In this document: piece by piece, positions 3,149-25,588 of the stretch | Numbering within the stretch: position 1 is the first letter of the stretch | Layout: every line of letters begins with the position of its first letter | NCBI GenBank assembly: GCA_020249045.1 | Contig: JADCGK010000083.1 | Span: forward strand, 1-42,679 | Length of the DNA: 42,679 bases | Direction: 5' to 3' | Source of the DNA: Azospirillum sp. | GTDB lineage: Bacteria; Pseudomonadota; Alphaproteobacteria; CACIAM-22H2 | The notes under the pieces: model-generated | Databases searched by the model: none | Seen by the model: the letters and a program-made list of their open reading frames with translations, nothing else | Told to the model about the DNA's origin: nothing | Position numbers and translations under genes: made by a program

Positions 3149-5982
3149 GCGGCGCCAAGCCGGACGCCGCCTCGCCCCATCGCCTGTGTTTGGTCGACGG
3201 GTCGGGCTTCATCTTCCGCGCCTATCACGCGTTGCCGCCGCTGACCCGGCCGGACGGCACGCCCGTGGGCGCGGTGCAGGGTTTCGTGAACATGCTCGTG
3301 CGGCTGATCGAAAGCCATGCGGGCGACCGGATCGCGGTGATTTTCGATACCTCGCGCAAGAGCTTCCGCAACGATTTCTACCCCGAATACAAAGCCCATC
3401 GGCCCGACCCGCCCGAGGATCTGGTGCCCCAATTCGCGTTGGTCCGCGAGGCGACGCGCGCTTTCGACCTGCCCGCGGTGGAATTGGCCGGGTATGAAGC
3501 CGACGATCTGATCGCGACTTACGCGGCCCTTGCGCTCGCCAAGGGCGAGACCGCGGTGATCGTGTCGTCCGACAAGGATTTGATGCAGCTCGTCCGGCCG
3601 GGCATCGAGATGCTCGACCCGCTCAAGCAGAAGAAAATCGGCGAAGCCGAAGTGGTCGAGAAATTCGGCGTCAAGCCCGCGCGCGTCGTCGACGTGCAGG
3701 CGCTGGCCGGGGATTCGACCGACAACGTGCCCGGCGTGCCCGGCATCGGCGTCAAGACCGCGGCCGAACTCATCAACGCCTACGGCGATCTCGACACGCT
3801 GTTGGCGCGGGCCGGGGAGATCAAGCAACCCAAGCGCCGCGAGACGCTGCTCGCGAACAAGGAGCAGGCGCTGATCTCGCGCCGGCTCGTCCAACTCAAG
3901 GCCGACGTTCAGGTCGAGGTTCCGCTCGAAGCCTTCGAGATCAAAAAGCCCGATCCGGCCAAGCTGCGCGCGTTCCTGGTCGATCAGGGATTCAGGTCGA
4001 CCATCGGCCGGCTCGAAGCGATGGGCTGGCTCGGCGAAGGCCCGATCGCCGCGGCGAAGAAAGCCGCAGTTCCCTTAACCGCCCCGGCCGAAGCGCCCGC
4101 CGCGACGGGCCCCGCGCGCTACGATCTGGTCGACGATCTCGCTGGCCTCGATGCCTGGATCGCGCGCGCGCGCGATCGCGGCCGCGTTTGCGTGGATACC
4201 GAGACGACCTCGCTGGACGCGCGCAACGCCGAACTCGTCGGCGTGTCGCTGGCGGTGGACGCGGGCCACGCATGCTATGTGCCGGTGGGCCATGTCGAGC
4301 CGGGGGCGCCCGGCGAACTCGATTTCGGCGGCGCCAAGCTCAAGCCCGGCCAGTTGGCGCGCAAGGACGTGCTCGATCGGCTCGCCCCGCTGCTGGCCGA
4401 TCCCGCGGTGCTCAAGATCGGCCATAACCTCAAATACGATATCCAGGTCTTCGCCGCCCACGGGATCGCCGAATTCGGGCCGTTCGACGACACGATGTTG
4501 ATGTCCTTCGTGCTCGACGCGGGCCTCAACGGCCACGGCATGGACGAGTTGGCCGAAAAGCATCTCGGCCACGCGACGATCAAATACGACGACGTCACCG
4601 GCACGGGCAAAGCGCGCATCTCCTTCGCCGCCGTGCCGCTCGACAAGGCGCGCGACTACGCCGCCGAGGACGCGGAAGTCACGCTGCGCCTGTGGTCGCG
4701 CCTGCGCCCGCGCCTGATCGACGAAGGATTGCTCGCGTTCTACGAGCGCGTCGAACGGCCTTTGATCCCCGCGATCGTGACGATGGAGCGCAACGGCATC
4801 GCCGTCGATCCCGAGCGCTTGCGCCGGCTGTCGAACGATTTCGCGCTGCGGCTGGCCGAGCTCGAAAAGGCGATCCACGCCGAAGCCGGCCATCCGTTCA
4901 ACGTCGGCAGCCCCGCCCAGCTCGGCAAAGTGCTGTTCGACGAGCTTTCCCTGCAATTGCCCGACGGCAAGGCGCCCGCCAAGACCAAGACCGGCGCCTA
5001 CGCGACGGGAGCGGACGTGCTCGAGGATCTCGCGGCGCTCGGCCACAAACTGCCCCAGCTGGTGCTCGATTGGCGTCAGCTCGCCAAACTCAAATCGACC
5101 TATACCGACGCGCTGGTCGAAGCGATCGACCCCAAGACGAAACGCGTTCACACGTCCTTCGCGATGACCGGCGCGGCCACCGGACGCTTGTCGTCGACCG
5201 ATCCCAATCTCCAGAACATTCCCGTGCGCAACGAGGAGGGCCGCAAGATCCGCGAAGCCTTCGTCGCCGCCGAAGGCACGACGCTGCTGTCGTTCGACTA
5301 TTCGCAGATCGAGTTGCGGCTGCTCGCCCACGTCGCGGGCATCGACACGCTGAAGGACGCTTTCCGGCGCAATCTCGACATCCATGCGGCGACGGCGTCC
5401 GAGATGTTCGGCGTGCCGCTCGACGCGATGGACAAAGAGACGCGCCGGCGCGCCAAGGCGATCAATTTCGGCATCATCTACGGGATTTCGGCCTTCGGTC
5501 TCGCGCGCCAGCTCGGCATCCCCCAAGGCGAGGCGCGCGCGTATATCGACGCCTATTTCAAGCGTTATCCCGGCATCCGCGCCTACATGGACGAGACCAA
5601 GAAGCTCGCCCACAAGCAAGGCTATGTCAGCACGCCCTTCGGCCGGCGCATTTGGCTGTCGGAAATCGGCTCGAAGAATCCGGCGATGCGCGCCTTCGCC
5701 GAGCGCGCGGCGATCAACGCGCCGTTGCAGGGCGGGGCCGCGGACATCATCAAGCGCGCGATGGCGCGGCTGCCCGAAGCGCTGGCCCAGGCCAACCTTT
5801 CGGCGAAGCTTTTGCTCCAGGTGCACGACGAATTGCTGTTCGAAGTGCCGCCGGCCGAAAAAACGGCGGCCATCGGACTGATCCGCGAGGTCATGGAGCA
5901 AGCGCCGTCTCCGGCGGTGAAACTCGACGTTCCGCTGGTGGTGGATTGCGGCGAAGGGCCGAATTGGGCGCGCGCGCATTGA
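3145..5982 (+). CDS. polA: DNA polymerase I
   Basis: 5'-nuclease domain; 3'-5' exo motifs DTETT, NLKYD, YAAED; polymerase motifs DYSQIELRLLAH, RRRAKAINFGIIYG, LQVHDELLFEV. Start inferred as TTG at 3145 (no suitable ATG). Confidence 0.95.
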   Translation: MSGAKPDAASPHRLCLVDGSGFIFRAYHALPPLTRPDGTPVGAVQGFVNMLVRLIESHAGDRIAVIFDTSRKSFRNDFYPEYKAHRPDPPEDLVPQFALVREATRAFDLPAVELAGYEADDLIATYAALALAKGETAVIVSSDKDLMQLVRPGIEMLDPLKQKKIGEAEVVEKFGVKPARVVDVQALAGDSTDNVPGVPGIGVKTAAELINAYGDLDTLLARAGEIKQPKRRETLLANKEQALISRRLVQLKADVQVEVPLEAFEIKKPDPAKLRAFLVDQGFRSTIGRLEAMGWLGEGPIAAAKKAAVPLTAPAEAPAATGPARYDLVDDLAGLDAWIARARDRGRVCVDTETTSLDARNAELVGVSLAVDAGHACYVPVGHVEPGAPGELDFGGAKLKPGQLARKDVLDRLAPLLADPAVLKIGHNLKYDIQVFAAHGIAEFGPFDDTMLMSFVLDAGLNGHGMDELAEKHLGHATIKYDDVTGTGKARISFAAVPLDKARDYAAEDAEVTLRLWSRLRPRLIDEGLLAFYERVERPLIPAIVTMERNGIAVDPERLRRLSNDFALRLAELEKAIHAEAGHPFNVGSPAQLGKVLFDELSLQLPDGKAPAKTKTGAYATGADVLEDLAALGHKLPQLVLDWRQLAKLKSTYTDALVEAIDPKTKRVHTSFAMTGAATGRLSSTDPNLQNIPVRNEEGRKIREAFVAAEGTTLLSFDYSQIELRLLAHVAGIDTLKDAFRRNLDIHAATASEMFGVPLDAMDKETRRRAKAINFGIIYGISAFGLARQLGIPQGEARAYIDAYFKRYPGIRAYMDETKKLAHKQGYVSTPFGRRIWLSEIGSKNPAMRAFAERAAINAPLQGGAADIIKRAMARLPEALAQANLSAKLLLQVHDELLFEVPPAEKTAAIGLIREVMEQAPSPAVKLDVPLVVDCGEGPNWARAH

Positions 5983-17722: not shown

Positions 17723-18661
17723 ATGACGGGCGACATCCTCGGTTTTCTGTTCGGCCCCCTGAAGGAGATTTGGGAATTCCCGATCTTCTTCGTCGAAGTC
17801 GTCATCGGCGGCCTGCTGACGGGCGTGATGTACAGCCTCGTGGCGCTCGGCTTCGTGCTGATCTTCAAGGCGTCGGGCGTGTTCAATTTCGCCCAAGGTG
17901 CGATGGTGCTTTGCGCGGCGCTGAGCTTCGTCGGGTTCCAGGAATTGGGCGCGCCGATATGGCTCGCGCTGATCCTCACGCTCGCAACGATGCTGCTGAT
18001 GGCGATGGCCATCGAACGGCTGGTCCTGCGCCCGCTCGTCAATCAGCCCGCCATCATCCTGTTCATGGCGACGATCGGGATCACCTTCTTCATCGACGGT
18101 CTGTTCCAGACGATCTGGGGCTCGGACATCAAGCGCATGGACGTCGGCATTCCGAAGGAGCCGATGGAATTCGGCGGCGTGCTGGTCAACACGTTCGACA
18201 TCGTCGCCGCACTCGTCGCGGGCACGCTGGTCGCCACGCTCGCCTTCTTCTTCCAATCCACGCGCATCGGCCGGGCGTTGCGCGCCGTCGCCGACGACCA
18301 TCAGGCCGCGCAATCGGTCGGCATTCCGCTGCGCACGATATGGGTCATCGTCTGGGCGGTGGCGGGGCTGGTGGCGCTCGTCGCGGGCATCATGTGGGGC
18401 TCGAAGCTCGGCGTGCAGTTTTCGCTGGCGCTGATCGCGCTCAAGGCGCTTCCGGTGCTCATCCTGGGCGGGTTCACCTCGATCCCGGGGGCGATCATCG
18501 GCGGGCTCATCATCGGGGTGGGCGAGAAGGTGGCTGAAGTCTACTGGGCGCCGGGGATCGGCGGCGGCATCGAGGATTGGTTCGCCTACATCCTGGCGCT
18601 GGTCTTCCTGATGTTCCGGCCCCAGGGGCTGTTCGGCGAAAAGATCATCGAGCGGGTGTGA
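17723..18661 (+). CDS. livH: branched-chain amino acid-type ABC transporter permease
   Basis: Polytopic; GGLLTGVMYSLVALGFVLIFKASGVFNFAQGAMV typical LivH. Confidence 0.93.
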   Translation: MTGDILGFLFGPLKEIWEFPIFFVEVVIGGLLTGVMYSLVALGFVLIFKASGVFNFAQGAMVLCAALSFVGFQELGAPIWLALILTLATMLLMAMAIERLVLRPLVNQPAIILFMATIGITFFIDGLFQTIWGSDIKRMDVGIPKEPMEFGGVLVNTFDIVAALVAGTLVATLAFFFQSTRIGRALRAVADDHQAAQSVGIPLRTIWVIVWAVAGLVALVAGIMWGSKLGVQFSLALIALKALPVLILGGFTSIPGAIIGGLIIGVGEKVAEVYWAPGIGGGIEDWFAYILALVFLMFRPQGLFGEKIIERV

Positions 18662-18667
18662 CGGCGC

Positions 18668-19744
18668 ATGTTTTACCGCGAATCCGGCCAGTTCAAATCC
18701 GCCTACGCCGCCGATCAGGCGATGTTCCCGATTCTGCAGGACCGCATCGGGATGGCCGTCATCCTGGCCGTGGCGTTCGTCGGCGTGCCGATGGTCGCCA
18801 ACGATTACTTCCTGTCGACGCTGCTGATCCCGTTCCTGATCTTCGCGCTCGCGGCGATCGGGCTCAACATCCTGACCGGCTATTGCGGGCAGTTGTCGTT
18901 GGGCACGGGCGGGTTCATGGCGTGCGGCGCCTTCGCGGCCTACAAGCTCGCGACCGCGCTGCCCGAAATGAACATCGTGGTCGTCTTCCTGTTGTCGGGC
19001 TTCGTGTCGGCGGCGGTGGGCGTGGTGTTCGGCGTGCCGAGCTTGCGCATCAAGGGTTTCTATCTGGCCGTGGCGACGCTCGCCGCGCAGTTCTTCCTGA
19101 TCTGGCTGTTCACCAAGGTGCCGTGGTTCGTCAACTACTCGGCCTCGGGCGTGATCTCGGCGCCGCCGCGCGACGTGTTCGGCTTCTACGTCACCGGGAT
19201 CGAGGCGACGGCGGAGGCGAAATACATTTTCTGCCTGTCTTTCGTCGCGGTCTTGGCGCTGGTCGCCAAAAATCTGGTGCGCGGGCGCGTGGGCCGCGCC
19301 TGGATGGCGATCCGCGACATGGACATCGCGGCCGAAATCATCGGCATCAAGCCCCTGCAGACCAAGCTGCTCGCCTTCGCCGTCTCGTCCTTCTATTGCG
19401 GCGTGGCGGGCGCGTTGTGGGCTTTCATCTACACGAGTTCGGTCGAAGCCCTGGCCTTCGACATCAACCGGTCCTTCCAGATCTTGTTCATGATCATCAT
19501 CGGCGGGTTGGGTTCGATCCTGGGGTCGTTCCTGGGGGCGGCGTTCATCGTGCTGCTGCCAATTTTCCTCAACGTCGTGCCGACGGCCATCGGCGTACCG
19601 CTGTCCACCGCCATGATCGCGCATATGGAGTTCATGATCTTCGGCGCGCTGATCATCTTCTTCCTGATCGTCGAGCCGCACGGGCTGGCGCGGTTGTGGC
19701 AACTGGGTAAGGAAAAGCTGCGCCTGTGGCCCTTTCCGCATTGA
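18668..19744 (+). CDS. livM: branched-chain amino acid-type ABC transporter permease
   Basis: Polytopic; LNILTGYCGQLSLGTGGFMACGAFAAY, RDMDIAAEIIGIKPLQTKLLAFAVSSFYCGVAGAL typical LivM. Confidence 0.93.
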   Translation: MFYRESGQFKSAYAADQAMFPILQDRIGMAVILAVAFVGVPMVANDYFLSTLLIPFLIFALAAIGLNILTGYCGQLSLGTGGFMACGAFAAYKLATALPEMNIVVVFLLSGFVSAAVGVVFGVPSLRIKGFYLAVATLAAQFFLIWLFTKVPWFVNYSASGVISAPPRDVFGFYVTGIEATAEAKYIFCLSFVAVLALVAKNLVRGRVGRAWMAIRDMDIAAEIIGIKPLQTKLLAFAVSSFYCGVAGALWAFIYTSSVEALAFDINRSFQILFMIIIGGLGSILGSFLGAAFIVLLPIFLNVVPTAIGVPLSTAMIAHMEFMIFGALIIFFLIVEPHGLARLWQLGKEKLRLWPFPH

Positions 19745-19852
19745 GGGGCGCGGACTAAATACCTTGTCGTCCCCGTTGCCAAATCGGGATGCGTCGGGTT
19801 ATCTCCCCGCGCGCTCGACGTTCTTCCATCCAGCCCCTCACCGAGGTCGCCG

Positions 19853-20233
19853 ATGAAAAGCCTTCTCGCCGCCGCCGTAATCGCCTTGGGCCTTCCGGTC
19901 CTGACGCCCGCACCCGCGCAAGCCGCCGATGCGGCCGCGGGCGAAGCGGCCGCGCGCCGTCTGTGCGCCGCGTGCCACATCTTCACCGCAGAAGGCCGGC
20001 GCGGTGTGGGCCCCACGCTGTTCGGTCTGGTCGGCCGCAAATCCGGCGCCGTCGAAGGCTTCCGCTATTCGACCGCCAACCAGAACGCGAACGTCGTCTG
20101 GACGCCCGAAGTGCTCGACAAATACCTCATCAACCCGCGCGAATTCATGCCTGGTACGACGATGGCCTTCGCCGGCATCCGCAACGAAGTCGAGCGCGCC
20201 AACGTCATCGCGTATCTGCAGACGCTGAAGTAG
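19853..20233 (+). CDS. class I (c2-type) cytochrome c
   Basis: Signal peptide, CAACH heme motif, GVGPTLFGLVGRKSG, MPGTTMAFAGI axial Met region. Confidence 0.93.
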   Translation: MKSLLAAAVIALGLPVLTPAPAQAADAAAGEAAARRLCAACHIFTAEGRRGVGPTLFGLVGRKSGAVEGFRYSTANQNANVVWTPEVLDKYLINPREFMPGTTMAFAGIRNEVERANVIAYLQTLK

Positions 20234-21533
20234 GCTCGGGCGCGCGGGCGGGGCAACACCCCCCGCTCGCCGCACCGGTTGCCGCCGGCAGTCGGATTTT
20301 GGGTTTCGGTCCGGCGCAAACGCCGGTTTCCGGCAGGACCAGTTCGACTTTGGCGGCAGCTTCAGCGTCGCCGGCGAGCGCTGCGACGATCGAGCGGACT
20401 TGTTCGTAGCCGGTCGCCAGCAGGAACGTCGGCGCACGGCCATAGGCTTTCATTCCGGCCAGATAGAAACCGGCTTCCGGCTGCGCCAATTCCTTGGCTC
20501 CGTGCGGGCGCACCGTGCCGCATGAATGCAGATTGGGATCGATCAGCGGGCCCAGCGCGCGCGGACATTCGAGCGCCGGGTCCAGATCGAGACGGACTTC
20601 GCGCAACATGTCGAGGTCGGGCCGAAAGCCGGTGGCGGCGATCAGGCGATCGGCCTCGATCGCCCGGCCGTCCTCCGCGCGCAAGCGCAGACGCCCGCCC
20701 GCCCGCTCGATCGCCGCGAGGCGGAACTCGGTTTCCGCCGCGATGCGGCCTCGGCGCACCAATCCCGCGATCGTCGTCCCCAGCGCGCCGCGCGCCGCCA
20801 GCTTGTCGGCACCGCCGCCGCCGAACGCTTTCTCCAAATCGGCGCCGCGATAGAGCCAGACGATCCGTCCGGCGATGCCGTCGAGTTCGATCAACGTGCC
20901 GATCGCCGAATGCCCGCCGCCGAGTACGGCGACGGTCTTGCCCGCGTAGGCGTCGCGCGCCGCCCCGGCGATTTCGGGCATCGCGTAGGCGATGCGTTCG
21001 GCGTTCTCCGCCTCGCCCGGCGCCGCGCGTCCGTCCGAGCCGGCGGGGTTGGGTTGGAACCACGTCCCCGACGCATCGATCACGGCGTCGGCCGTCACGC
21101 GATAGGCGCCCGCCGGACCTTCCACGACGAGTTCGAAGGGGCGCGCGCTGCGGCCCGCGTCCTTGACCTTGTCGAGGCCGCGTCGGCCGATCGAGCGGAC
21201 CCGCGCGCTCGTCCGCAAGGCGGCGCGGAGGGCGGGCACCGCGGCCAAAGTCGCGACGTAGTGGGCGAGCAAGTCGCCGCCCGTCGGGTGATCGAGCGGG
21301 TTGGGCGGAGTCCAGCCGGTTTCGCGCAACAGGCGTGCCGCAGCGGCGTCGATGTTCAACGACCAGGTCGAGAACATCCGGACATGCGCCCACTGGCGGA
21401 TCGCGTGGCCCGCCTCGGGGCCGCGCTCGAGCACGATGGGCGTAAGTCCGCGTTCCAGCGCGTGCGCGGCCGCCGCAAGGCCGACGGGTCCCGCGCCGAC
21501 GATCGCGAGAGTTTTCACCTGGGACATCGGCAT
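20205..21533 (-). CDS. FAD/NAD(P)-binding flavoprotein monooxygenase, ars-associated (ArsO-like)
   Basis: AIVGAGPVGLAAAAHALERG FAD motif, AVLGGGHSAIGTLIEL NAD(P) motif, RLIAATGFRPDL; lies directly downstream of arsR. Confidence 0.85.
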   Translation of the reverse strand: MPMSQVKTLAIVGAGPVGLAAAAHALERGLTPIVLERGPEAGHAIRQWAHVRMFSTWSLNIDAAAARLLRETGWTPPNPLDHPTGGDLLAHYVATLAAVPALRAALRTSARVRSIGRRGLDKVKDAGRSARPFELVVEGPAGAYRVTADAVIDASGTWFQPNPAGSDGRAAPGEAENAERIAYAMPEIAGAARDAYAGKTVAVLGGGHSAIGTLIELDGIAGRIVWLYRGADLEKAFGGGGADKLAARGALGTTIAGLVRRGRIAAETEFRLAAIERAGGRLRLRAEDGRAIEADRLIAATGFRPDLDMLREVRLDLDPALECPRALGPLIDPNLHSCGTVRPHGAKELAQPEAGFYLAGMKAYGRAPTFLLATGYEQVRSIVAALAGDAEAAAKVELVLPETGVCAGPKPKIRLPAATGAASGGCCPARAPEPTSASADTR

Positions 21534-21543
21534 TCTCCTGTCA

Positions 21544-21561
21544 TTCCAGAAATTTCGAAAT
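21544..21561. promoter_or_regulatory. candidate ArsR operator, copy 2
   Basis: TTCCAGAAATTTCGAAAT; 15/18 identical to 21942-21959; contains the perfect palindrome ATTTCGAAAT. Confidence 0.6.
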
Positions 21562-21575
21562 AATGGCCAAACCCA

Positions 21576-21899
21576 TCATGCCGCGCGCGTGGCCGCGTCG
21601 GCCGGCGCGCACGCGCTTTCCGCGCAGCACTCGGCGACGAGAAACGCCACGAGGCCGCGCATCAGCTTGAAATCGGCGGTACAGATCAGCGTCGTCCGCT
21701 CGCGCGTTTGGCGCACGAGTCCGGTCGCGCAAAGAGTCTTGAGGTGATGGGAGAGCGTCGAGGCGGGCATATCCAGCCGCTGCTGGATTCGGCCCACCGG
21801 CAGCCCAGCCTCGCCCGCCCGGACCAGAAGCCGGAAAACGGCGAGGCGCGTCGGGTTGCCGAGCGCTTCGAGCTGGGTTGCGGCATCGGTGATCTTCAT
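21576..21899 (-). CDS. arsR: ArsR-family transcriptional repressor
   Basis: LEALGNPTRLAVFRLLVRAGEAGLPVGRIQQRLDMPASTLSHHLKTL winged helix; C-terminal AECCAESAC; divergent from arsC. Confidence 0.92.
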   Translation of the reverse strand: MKITDAATQLEALGNPTRLAVFRLLVRAGEAGLPVGRIQQRLDMPASTLSHHLKTLCATGLVRQTRERTTLICTADFKLMRGLVAFLVAECCAESACAPADAATRAA

Positions 21900-21941
21900 C
21901 CCCGACACTGTGCGCCGGGAAATCCCTTCCGTCAACGATAT

Positions 21942-21959
21942 TTCCAGAAAAATCGAAAC
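21942..21959. promoter_or_regulatory. candidate ArsR operator, copy 1, over a putative arsC promoter
   Basis: TTCCAGAAAAATCGAAAC in the arsR/arsC divergent region; overlaps TTTCCA-N17-CATTAT (21941-21969). Confidence 0.6.
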
Positions 21960-22014
21960 ACGTCATTATTTCGTCATCGAGATCGGGCAGATTTTCCGCG
22001 TGAAAGAGGCCGCC

Positions 22015-22521
22015 ATGACCGATCAGACCAAAAACGTCCTGTTCTTGTGCACGCATAATTCGGCGCGTTCGGTAATGGCCGAAGCGCTGCTGAACCGCTT
22101 GGGCGGTGGCCGCTTCAAGGCCTACAGTGCCGGCTCGTACCCGTCGGGCCGGATCAACCCGTTCGTCGAAACGCTGCTCAAGAAAATGAACTTCGATCTT
22201 GCGGGCTTCCGTTCGAAAAGCTGGAACGAGTTCGCCGTCCCCGGGGCGCCGCAACTGCACTTCGTGTTCACGGTGTGCGATCAGGCGGCGGGGGAAGTCT
22301 GCCCGATCTGGCCGGGCCAGCCGATCAACGCCCATTGGGGTTTCCCCGATCCGTCGAGTGCGACGGGCACCGATGCGGAGAAGGCCGCCTTCACCGCCGA
22401 CGTATTCCGCATGATCGAACGGCGTATCGGCATCTTCGTCAATCTGCCCTTCGCCGCGCTGTCCACGCTGGAGTTGAAGCGCAAACTCGACGACATGGGC
22501 AAAGCGAAGGAGCCGGCGTGA
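22015..22521 (+). CDS. arsC: arsenate reductase (low-molecular-weight phosphotyrosine phosphatase type)
   Basis: VLFLCTHNSARSVMAEALLN (CX5R), VFTVCDQAAGEVCPIWPGQPINAHWGFPDPS. Confidence 0.92.
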   Translation: MTDQTKNVLFLCTHNSARSVMAEALLNRLGGGRFKAYSAGSYPSGRINPFVETLLKKMNFDLAGFRSKSWNEFAVPGAPQLHFVFTVCDQAAGEVCPIWPGQPINAHWGFPDPSSATGTDAEKAAFTADVFRMIERRIGIFVNLPFAALSTLELKRKLDDMGKAKEPA

Positions 22522-23165
22522 CGCGCAGAGACCGGCTGACGGCGGAGTTCGCCGGAACCGCGCTGCTGCTTGCGGCCGTCGTGGGCTCGGGGATCATGGC
22601 CGAGCGGTTGTCGGGCGGGAATGTCGGCCTTGCGCTGCTCGCCAACGCGATCGCCACGGCCGGCGTGCTCTACGCGCTCATCGCCGCTTTGGGGCCGGTT
22701 TCGGGCGCGCATTTCAACCCGATCGTCACGCTCGCCATGGCCGCGCGCGGGGATTTGCCGCGCGCGCTGGTGCCATCCTATCTCGTCGTCCAATTCGCCG
22801 GCGCGATCGTGGGCGTGTGGCTCGCCCATCTGATGTTCGACGTGCCGGTGCTGCAGATCGGCGTCAAAGTACGGACCGGCCCCGGCCAATGGGTGGCCGA
22901 AGCGGTCGCCACGTTCGGCCTGTTGCTGACGATCTGGCACGCCTCGCGCCATGCGCCCGCGCACATCCCGGCGGCGGTCGCCGGATATATCGCGGGCGCC
23001 TACTGGTTCACCGCCTCCACCAGCTTCGCCAATCCGGCCGTGACCGTCGCCCGGGCGCTGACCGACAGCTTCGCGGGCATCCGGCCCTTCGACGTGCCGG
23101 GCTTCGTTGCAGCCCAATTTTTGGGCTTGGGGCTGATCCTGCTGCTGACCCGCCGGTCGCCATAA
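22518..23165 (+). CDS. aqpS: MIP-family channel (aquaglyceroporin, AqpS-like)
   Basis: GTG start overlapping the arsC stop (GTGA); GPVSGAHFNPIVTL and FANPAVTVARALTDSFAGI half-helix motifs. Confidence 0.88.
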   Translation: MTRRDRLTAEFAGTALLLAAVVGSGIMAERLSGGNVGLALLANAIATAGVLYALIAALGPVSGAHFNPIVTLAMAARGDLPRALVPSYLVVQFAGAIVGVWLAHLMFDVPVLQIGVKVRTGPGQWVAEAVATFGLLLTIWHASRHAPAHIPAAVAGYIAGAYWFTASTSFANPAVTVARALTDSFAGIRPFDVPGFVAAQFLGLGLILLLTRRSP

Positions 23166-23313
23166 AGGCTTTTGCGGCCCTCCCGATTCCGGGCTATCGT
23201 TCGTTTCACAAGGCCGGCGACGACCGGCCCCACGCTTCGCATCGCCAATCCGCGGCAAGACGGAAAATCGGGTGCGGGGAGTCGGACGACAAACGCAACA
23301 GGGAGATCGCCCC

Positions 23314-24648
23314 ATGAGGTTCACCCGTCTCGGGTTCGCGTTCGCCGGTGCCGCGATGGTCGCGGCGTCGTTGGCCGCCCCCACGCCCGCGCTCGCGCAG
23401 GCCAACGAGCAGTTCATCCCCGCGCTGGTCTATCGCACCGGCCCGTTCGGACCGAACGGCACGCCCTTCGCCGACGGCTTCGTCGATTATCTGAAGATGA
23501 TCAACGCCCGCGACGGCGGCGTGAACGGCGTTCGCCTGACCTGGGAGGAATGCGAGACCGCCTACAACACCGACCGCGGCGTCGAGTGCTACGAGCGCTT
23601 GAAGGCGCGCGGGCCCACCGGCGCCACCGCGATCGTGCCGCTGTCCACCGGCATCACCTACGCGCTGATCGAGCGCACGGTGCAGGACCGCATTCCGCTG
23701 CTGACCTCGGGCTACGGCCGGTCGGACTCCTCCGACGGGCGCGTCTTCCCCTGGACCTTCACGCTGCCCGCGACCTACTACTCGCAGATGGACGCGATCG
23801 TGCAGTTCATCCGCTCGAAGGAGGGCGGAAATCTGCGCGGCAAGAAGATCAGCTACATCTATCACGACAGCGCCTTCGGCAAGGAGCCGCTGCCCGTGAT
23901 CCAGCGCTTGGCCCGCGAGCAGGGCTTCGAACTCACCGAGTTCCCGGTCCCCAATCCGGGCGTCGAGCAGAAGGCGATCTGGCTGCGCATCGGCCGTCAG
24001 ATCCGTCCGAACTACGTGATCATGTGGGGCTGGGGCATCATGAACCCGACCGCCATCCAGGAAGCGGCGGCCGTGGGCTTCCCGCGCGACCGCTTCATCG
24101 GCGTGTGGTGGGCCGGGTCCGAACAGGACGTGACGCCGCCGGGCGATCTCGCGCGCGGGTATCTCGCCGCGAACTTCCACGGCACGGGCAAGGACTTCAA
24201 GTTCATCCGCGACATCGAAAACCTGGTCCATAAGCCGGGCCAGGCCACGGGCGACGGCAAGCATCTCGGCACCGTGCTCTACAACCGCGGCGCCGTGAAC
24301 GCGGCGATGATCGTGGAAGCCGTGCGCGCGGCCCAGGAACGTCACGGGCGCGGCCGCCCGATGACCGGCGCCCAGGTCCGCGACGGGTTCGAGGCGCTGA
24401 ACCTCGATCCGCAGCGTCTCGCGGCGATGGGCTTCGAGGGCTTCATGCCGCCCTTGCGCCTGTCCTGCGCCGATCACGAAGGCGGCGGCATCGTCCGCAT
24501 CCAGCAATGGGACGGCAGGAAGTGGAACTGGGCGTCCGACTGGATCGAGCCCAACCGCGCGATGATCCGCGAAATGTACGAAGCGACGTCCATGCAGTAC
24601 GCGCGCGAAAAGAACATCACCCCGCGCGATTGCGCGCGGCAAAGCTGA
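23314..24648 (+). CDS. livK: ABC transporter periplasmic substrate-binding protein, Liv/aromatic type
   Basis: Signal peptide MRFTRLGFAFAGAAMVAASLAAPTPALAQ; peripla_BP_6-like GPFGPNGTPFADGFVDYLKMINARDGGVNG. Confidence 0.88.
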   Translation: MRFTRLGFAFAGAAMVAASLAAPTPALAQANEQFIPALVYRTGPFGPNGTPFADGFVDYLKMINARDGGVNGVRLTWEECETAYNTDRGVECYERLKARGPTGATAIVPLSTGITYALIERTVQDRIPLLTSGYGRSDSSDGRVFPWTFTLPATYYSQMDAIVQFIRSKEGGNLRGKKISYIYHDSAFGKEPLPVIQRLAREQGFELTEFPVPNPGVEQKAIWLRIGRQIRPNYVIMWGWGIMNPTAIQEAAAVGFPRDRFIGVWWAGSEQDVTPPGDLARGYLAANFHGTGKDFKFIRDIENLVHKPGQATGDGKHLGTVLYNRGAVNAAMIVEAVRAAQERHGRGRPMTGAQVRDGFEALNLDPQRLAAMGFEGFMPPLRLSCADHEGGGIVRIQQWDGRKWNWASDWIEPNRAMIREMYEATSMQYAREKNITPRDCARQS

Positions 24649-24673
24649 TCGGCAGCGATCGGCGTCTGCGACC

Positions 24674-24706
24674 GGGGCGGATCGGCGACGATCCGCCCCT
24701 CTCTTT
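24674..24706 (+). terminator. intrinsic terminator between livK and livF
   Basis: 10-bp perfect stem GGGGCGGATC/GATCCGCCCC (24674-24683/24690-24699), loop GGCGAC, then TCTCTTT. Confidence 0.75.
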
Positions 24707-24736
24707 GCCGGGACGGGAAATTCAGGGATAGCGACG

Positions 24737-25588
24737 ATGACCACCGCCGCCGCGGAACTCGAACGCAAGATGGCCGCCCCCGCCGCCGCGCCGCTGCTGG
24801 CGGTGCGCAACATCGAAGTCATCTACGACCACGTCATTCTCGTGCTGAAGGGCGTCAGCCTCGAAGTGCCCAAGGGCGGCATCGTCGCCCTGCTCGGCGC
24901 CAACGGCGCGGGCAAATCCACCACGCTCAAATCGATCTCGAACCTGCTGCGCGCCGAACGCGGCGACGTGACCAAGGGCTCGATCGAATACAAGGGCGAG
25001 CGGATCGAAAAGCTCACGCCCAACGACCTCGTCAAGAAGGGCGTCATCCAGGTGATGGAAGGCCGGCATTGCTTCGGCCATCTGACGGTCGAGGAAAACC
25101 TCCTCACCGGCGCCTACACGCGCACCGACGGCCGTGCGGCGATCGCGCGCGATCTCGAGATGGTCTACGGCTATTTCCCGCGCCTCAAGGAACGCCGCAA
25201 ATCCCAGGCCGGCTACACCTCGGGCGGCGAGCAGCAGATGACGGCCATCGGCCGCGCGCTGATGAGCAAGCCCGAGACCATCCTGCTCGACGAGCCCTCG
25301 ATGGGCCTGGCCCCGCAGCTGGTCGAGGAAATCTTCGAGATCGTCGTGAAGCTCAACAAGGAGCAGGGCGTGTCGTTCCTGCTCGCCGAGCAGAACACCT
25401 CGATCGCGCTGCGCCACGCGCATTACGGCTACATCCTGGAAAACGGCCGCGTCGTGCTCGACGGCACGGCCGAGGCGCTGCGCGGCAACGAGGACGTCAA
25501 GGAATTCTATCTCGGCGTTTCCGGGGCGGGCCGCAAATCCTTCCGCGAGGTCAAACACTACAAGCGACGCAAGCGCTGGCTCGCGTAG
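24737..25588 (+). CDS. livF: branched-chain amino acid-type ABC transporter ATP-binding protein
   Basis: GANGAGKSTTLKSISNLL, TSGGEQQM, ILLDEPSMGLAPQLVEEIFEIV typical LivF. Confidence 0.93.
   Translation: MTTAAAELERKMAAPAAAPLLAVRNIEVIYDHVILVLKGVSLEVPKGGIVALLGANGAGKSTTLKSISNLLRAERGDVTKGSIEYKGERIEKLTPNDLVKKGVIQVMEGRHCFGHLTVEENLLTGAYTRTDGRAAIARDLEMVYGYFPRLKERRKSQAGYTSGGEQQMTAIGRALMSKPETILLDEPSMGLAPQLVEEIFEIVVKLNKEQGVSFLLAEQNTSIALRHAHYGYILENGRVVLDGTAEALRGNEDVKEFYLGVSGAGRKSFREVKHYKRRKRWLA

Follow-up and report, generated by a model that had tools for sequence, protein, structure and literature searches.

Two closely similar sites flank an arsR gene in the 42,679-nucleotide stretch of Azospirillum sp. 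DNA analysed here (contig JADCGK010000083.1, referred to throughout as the window), and both are in all likelihood operators of the ArsR repressor encoded between them, which would repress arsR, the divergent arsC-aqpS arm and a neighbouring flavoprotein gene until a trivalent arsenical binds. Judged from their distribution across genomes, the two sites are not a product of chance: both are conserved and both are paired with one repressor type, here called ArsR-A. Regulation of the flavoprotein gene by ArsR is strongly supported by this comparison of sequences, and ArsR very probably controls both itself and this neighbour. The initial annotation had assigned both arms of the locus to one ArsR; the tie to the flavoprotein gene is borne out by the conserved sites, whereas the tie to arsC-aqpS is indirect, given a weak arsC promoter and the presence of a dedicated arsR in relatives.

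In the mechanism that we propose, an ArsR dimer would occupy operator 1 as long as no inducer is present and shut off two promoters, the leaderless one of arsR (autoregulation) and the divergent one of arsC-aqpS. Operator 2 would hold a further dimer, which would block a promoter lying in the arsR/flavoprotein gap and would also impede read-through from arsR, so that the flavoprotein gene stays tightly off. Binding of a trivalent arsenical to the C-terminal cysteines would free ArsR from both sites, and three transcripts would be induced.

Sequence and uniqueness of the two sites

Operator 1 is positioned in the arsR/arsC divergent region (21939..21960, − strand) and operator 2 between arsR and the flavoprotein gene (21541..21562, − strand); read on the − strand, the corresponding 22-mers are TGTTTCGATTTTTCTGGAAATA and TATTTCGAAATTTCTGGAATGA. 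Two 18-mers had been noted initially at 21544-21561 and 21942-21959. Their coordinates are right, they are identical at 15 of 18 positions and differ at three, and they form the inner part of the full 22-bp sites, which on the − strand run from 21562 to 21541 and from 21960 to 21939, respectively. The motif is an imperfect inverted repeat of 22 bp, TATTTCGA-N6-TAGAAATA (consensus TATTTCGAATATTCTAGAAATA), with the dyad centred at 11.5 in the 22-mer and the outer six pairs 72-99% complementary across 68 distinct upstream sites. It differs from the ATCAA-N6-TTGAT core reported for other ArsR sites (PMC9137774). In the window, the left half of operator 2 is intact and the right half, running toward the Shine-Dalgarno sequence, is weak and degenerate (TGGAATGA); given this degenerate half, binding to operator 2 may be weak. 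A dyad centred on TTCTAGAA and read as a 12-2-12 repeat is seen in part, and perfect 30-bp versions of it exist; it was rejected because, upstream of arsR, conservation is stronger for the outer TATTTC...GAAATA dyad.

The two sites are the only matches in the window to their joint degenerate consensus with three or fewer mismatches (shuffled mean 0.12), and they alone match it exactly in the 3.87 Mb genome, where no third exact site pointing to a wider regulon was found. The conserved alphaproteobacterial core TTTCSANNNTTCYRGAA likewise has exact genome matches at operators 1 and 2 only. Scored with a weight matrix from orthologues that excluded the window, operator 1 reached 31.5 bits and operator 2 27.2 bits; in simulated genomes of equal size (n = 3) no score exceeded 17.7, and within the window the best-scoring unrelated place fell far below the operators.

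Conservation of the sites in other genomes

Scanning of relatives of the flavoprotein gave 80 loci, and in most of the alphaproteobacterial ones the flavoprotein gene follows an arsR of the ArsR-A type. The 22-bp weight matrix was trained on 38 distinct sites, each upstream of an orthologous arsR-A gene; neither the window nor any site in the arsR/flavoprotein gap was used. Of 69 loci, 66 had a gap site scoring above the 99% shuffle level, although the loci are related and most come from Bradyrhizobium, so that such counts overstate independence; the three loci with no significant gap match were L033, L067 and L036. Gap sites share one orientation throughout and for the most part stand 12-14 nt ahead of the flavoprotein start. 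In held-out genomes sampled later, the gap site was present in nine of ten clear ArsR-A loci. The conservation scan upstream of orthologues, suggested initially as a check, thus found both sites kept in position, orientation and sequence, making the motif a testable, phylogenetically supported site for the whole ArsR clade.

A genome pattern search also located the same operator ahead of arsR-arsP pairs in which arsR is of the ArsR-A type; in two of these cases it forms a perfect palindrome of 30 bp. Perfect palindromes, TATTTCGAT...ATCGAAATA, stand before the arsR-arsP pairs of L193 (2778-2803) and L194 (3290-3315). L172 and L173 are likewise listed with a perfect palindrome; the two genomes with such a site upstream of an ArsR-A-type gene were located by pattern alone.

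Autoregulated ars operons of the ArsR/SmtB family, including those of E. coli R773 and K-12 ArsR and of P. putida ArsR1 and ArsR2, share with the window an imperfect inverted-repeat operator at the repressor's own promoter and a cysteine inducer site. Here, in contrast, two operators flank arsR, the second right before the next gene, and this arrangement is conserved across families. As judged by this comparison, the two-operator layout is a conserved variant, across alphaproteobacteria, of a known kind of regulation.

Promoters around the two sites

At the arsR-side site, the promoter that is conserved belongs to arsR itself rather than to arsC. It reads TTGACG-N17-CACAGT (21907..21935, − strand), and its -10 ends 7 nt before the arsR ATG, so a leaderless arsR transcript is predicted. 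In 57 of 57 non-Rhodobacterales loci, a TTGAC follows the operator directly and begins 34-38 nt upstream of the arsR ATG. In Rhodobacterales, the arsR promoter has the form TTGNNN-N16-17-TAGAAA, and its spacer and -10 lie under the operator. Footprinted ArsR operators of P. putida overlap the -10 box (PMC7994332).

Operator 2 overlaps a promoter-like element of the flavoprotein gene, TTGGCC-N16-TGGAAT (21543..21570, − strand). In 38 of 62 distinct gaps (shuffled mean 7.2, maximum 14), a TTG precedes a -10-like hexamer by 16-18 nt, and this is the same geometry as that of the arsR promoter in Rhodobacterales; from these two observations, operator 2 probably covers a candidate promoter of the flavoprotein gene. 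Alternatively, operator 2 could act solely as a roadblock or insulator at which bound ArsR stops leaky read-through from arsR, with the flavoprotein gene having no promoter of its own. The natural gene order is identical to that of an engineered arsR-ABS-egfp biosensor (Stocker et al. 2003), in which, as described in PMC3918153, a second ArsR site between arsR and the output gene lowers uninduced expression, and the gap promoter is weak in consensus in Tagaea and Nitrobacteraceae. Against this reading stand the 38 gaps with promoter spacing, where 7.2 are expected, and the use of identical geometry as the arsR promoter in Rhodobacterales. We regard an exclusive roadblock as possible but doubtful. 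The two functions can coexist, and operator 2, in addition to covering a promoter, may also block read-through by analogy with the biosensor. The window layout differs from the engineered one in being natural, conserved and apparently joined with an internal promoter. It would represent a natural counterpart of the biosensor device of a second operator after arsR, and a defined pair of operator and repressor would be useful for arsenic biosensor design.

The arsC-aqpS arm

The arsC gene (22015..22521, + strand) encodes an arsenate reductase of the LMW-phosphatase type (Pfam LMWPc; the arsC_pI258 model is below its cut-off), and its stop is overlapped by 4 nt by the gene for an aqpS-like MIP channel (22518..23165, + strand; Pfam MIP). 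An arsC promoter, TTTCCA-N17-CATTAT (21941..21969, + strand), overlapped by operator 1, had been proposed in the initial annotation. Its hexamers are present when read directly, but they match the consensus at just 8 of 12 positions and a promoter scan returned none at 9 or more, and relatives carry a second arsR gene, arsR-B, at that place.

Synteny at the locus extends to two genomes of the same genus, among them that of Tagaea sp. CACIAM 22H2, and the flanking transporter proteins are 88-90% identical. Both relatives have arsR-B between arsR-A and arsC. It is missing from the window genome, and no remnant was found between arsC and arsR; the assembly comprises 255 contigs and is 98.3% complete, so that arsR-B could sit in a gap elsewhere, while the locus itself is continuous. 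Without arsR-B, arsC and arsR-A stand divergently here, separated by operator 1. In close relatives with ArsR-A beside an arsC-aqpS arm, the arm has its own arsR. Control of arsC-aqpS by ArsR-A is plausible and looks specific to this genome, because the AfArsR-type arsR that precedes arsC in relatives is missing. With synteny otherwise kept, the loss of a single repressor here amounts to a small natural experiment in regulatory rewiring.

ArsR could instead govern arsR and the flavoprotein gene only, leaving arsC-aqpS constitutive or under another regulator. This would be in keeping with the disappearance of the dedicated arsR-B, the weak arsC promoter and the lack of precedent among relatives for ArsR-A governing arsC. 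Operator 1, however, is positioned 55-76 nt before the arsC ATG, over the proposed -35 and spacer, and a dimer on it would very likely impede polymerase. We consider separate control of arsC-aqpS unlikely, and prefer joint repression of both arms by ArsR-A.

The ars and cytochrome c genes of the window (17723-25588) are set among the genes of a branched-chain-type ABC transporter, with livH/livM-like genes on one side and substrate-binding/livF-like genes on the other. Two same-genus genomes (L190 and L191) have this layout as well.

Pairing of the site with the ArsR-A repressor

The arsR-A gene (21576..21899, − strand) encodes a protein of 107 aa containing Cys73, Cys91, Cys92 and Cys97, which scores above the cut-off of NCBIfam HTH_metalloreg and has as its nearest solved relative AfArsR from Acidithiobacillus ferrooxidans (PDB 6j05). 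Cys73, Cys91 and Cys92 are invariant, and a further C-terminal Cys is usual (third Cys in 84%). AfArsR shares with ArsR-A the vicinal C-terminal Cys-Cys plus a further Cys, with the Cys91-Cys92-Cys97 spacing one shorter than that of the AfArsR-like Cys95-Cys96-Cys102 triad; ArsR-A differs from AfArsR in the additional invariant Cys73 and in its separate tree group. ArsR-A is set apart from ArsR-B and AfArsR by a split with support of 99/99, in a tree in which the AfArsR branch is long. In this tree AfArsR groups with the arsC-linked ArsR-B proteins and not with ArsR-A. ArsR-B is about 36% identical to ArsR-A, and in many loci its gene is divergent from arsR-A and precedes arsC and/or the gene for an aqpS-like channel.

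Presence of the gap site follows the repressor type. In loci in which the other (ArsR-B) type precedes the same flavoprotein gene, the gap site was found in none of ten, nor in any of about six held-out loci (0 of ~16 together), and the association between site and ArsR type gave a Fisher p of ~1e-14 with kinship of the loci ignored. This pairing bears on the possibility that the gap motif is kept by a promoter or translation-initiation constraint rather than by repressor binding. The motif does overlap the -10-like hexamer and abut the Shine-Dalgarno sequence, and its right half is the less conserved one. Yet the matrix, which comes mostly from sites in another context, upstream of a -35, still fits the gap, the ArsR-B-type loci with the same flavoprotein are without the motif, and the gap has no match to an Rfam family that would indicate an RNA element. 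Such a constraint is an improbable explanation, and we infer that ArsR-A binds the gap motif. That the likeness of the two sites reflects chance or a recent duplication without function, from which 15/18 identity of two nearby sites could come, is highly implausible, given that each site is independently conserved at the same place in orthologues and that their scores exceed the simulated-genome maxima.

Six other ArsR-A-type genes with a nearby operator precede a gene for a permease-like protein, and all five tested belong to the ArsP_1 family. Since ArsP is an organoarsenical exporter (PMC6205960), the pairing of the ArsR-A clade with arsP suggests organoarsenicals as candidate inducers. The SpArsR type is described in PMC13236881 and PMC11868830 as methylarsenite-selective (Chen et al. 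2017). Compared by description rather than by sequence, the ArsR-A clade resembles it in its pairing with ArsP-family permease genes and in the Cys-Cys-only site of several ArsP-linked members (L194, L195, L196 and L198 are without the third C-terminal Cys), whereas a third Cys lies nearby in the window ArsR and in most members linked to the flavoprotein. The window ArsR departs from a two-Cys site of the SpArsR type in that Cys97 is present as a possible third ligand. A tentative extension is that the ArsR-A clade might consist of organoarsenical-biased repressors that control arsP in some alphaproteobacteria and, through the two-operator layout, an ArsV-like oxidase in others, and that loss of the AfArsR-type repressor handed arsC-aqpS to ArsR-A here; if true, two arsenic responses kept apart in relatives would have become joined in the window genome.

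Several ArsR-B-type genes (L185, L186, L181 and L182) carry sites that start with TTTCCAT or TTTCGAT and are related to, but distinct from, the ArsR-A motif, which suggests related specificities of the two repressor types. On plasmid 2 of Nitrobacter hamburgensis (L129), an arsR-B that is not in the gene table lies at 5095-5549, with its own operator-like site beside that of arsR-A; a reading of this plasmid as a single-ArsR locus was rejected on account of this unannotated gene.

The flavoprotein gene

The flavoprotein gene (20205..21527, − strand) encodes a protein of 440 aa with FAD/NAD(P) binding (Pfam Pyr_redox_3) and a predicted fold like those of YpdA/TrxR and bacterial FMO. The initial annotation had placed operator 2 10 nt upstream of an ATG at 21533; the distance is correct, but the ATG at 21527 is the better start, with AGGAG (21535..21539, − strand, read directly) 7 nt upstream and in alignment with the start of orthologues.

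ArsO of the Streptomyces FR-008 arsRBOCT cluster is likewise flavin-dependent and ars-linked. Identity with ArsO was rejected: the ArsO model (NF040505) gives 41.6 bits against a cut-off of 425, and on the FR-008 plasmid ArsO and a relative of the window flavoprotein are separate genes. ArsV is a flavin monooxygenase reported with ArsW/ArsK (Zhang et al. 2022; Chen et al. 2021; as cited in PMC11719878 and PMC10080717). Compared by context rather than by sequence, the window protein shares with it an FAD/NAD(P)-binding fold with its motifs and linkage to arsR. In several relatives an MFS gene comes next, forming arsR-flavoprotein-MFS clusters, and in Ensifer adhaerens this gene is annotated arsK; linkage to an MFS exporter is found in relatives only, and in contrast to the ArsV context no MFS gene follows the flavoprotein gene in the window genome. 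By its predicted fold and the context described in reviews, the flavoprotein is ArsV-like rather than an ArsO. This analogy suggests a role in organoarsenical or antimonite detoxification; in the window genome no ArsP was found and no ArsH above cut-off. A widespread flavoprotein family, so far generically annotated, is in this way tied to the ArsR-A repressor.

In-frame stops in some relatives of the flavoprotein were considered as recoding and rejected, as they were C-terminal ends or were not reproduced. One same-genus genome (L118/L192, G006 contig 13) holds another arsR-A/flavoprotein copy, which has diverged to about 60% identity. In the window, the 3' end of the flavoprotein gene runs 29 nt into that of a convergent cytochrome c gene (20205-20233), and a similar overlap is present in L012.
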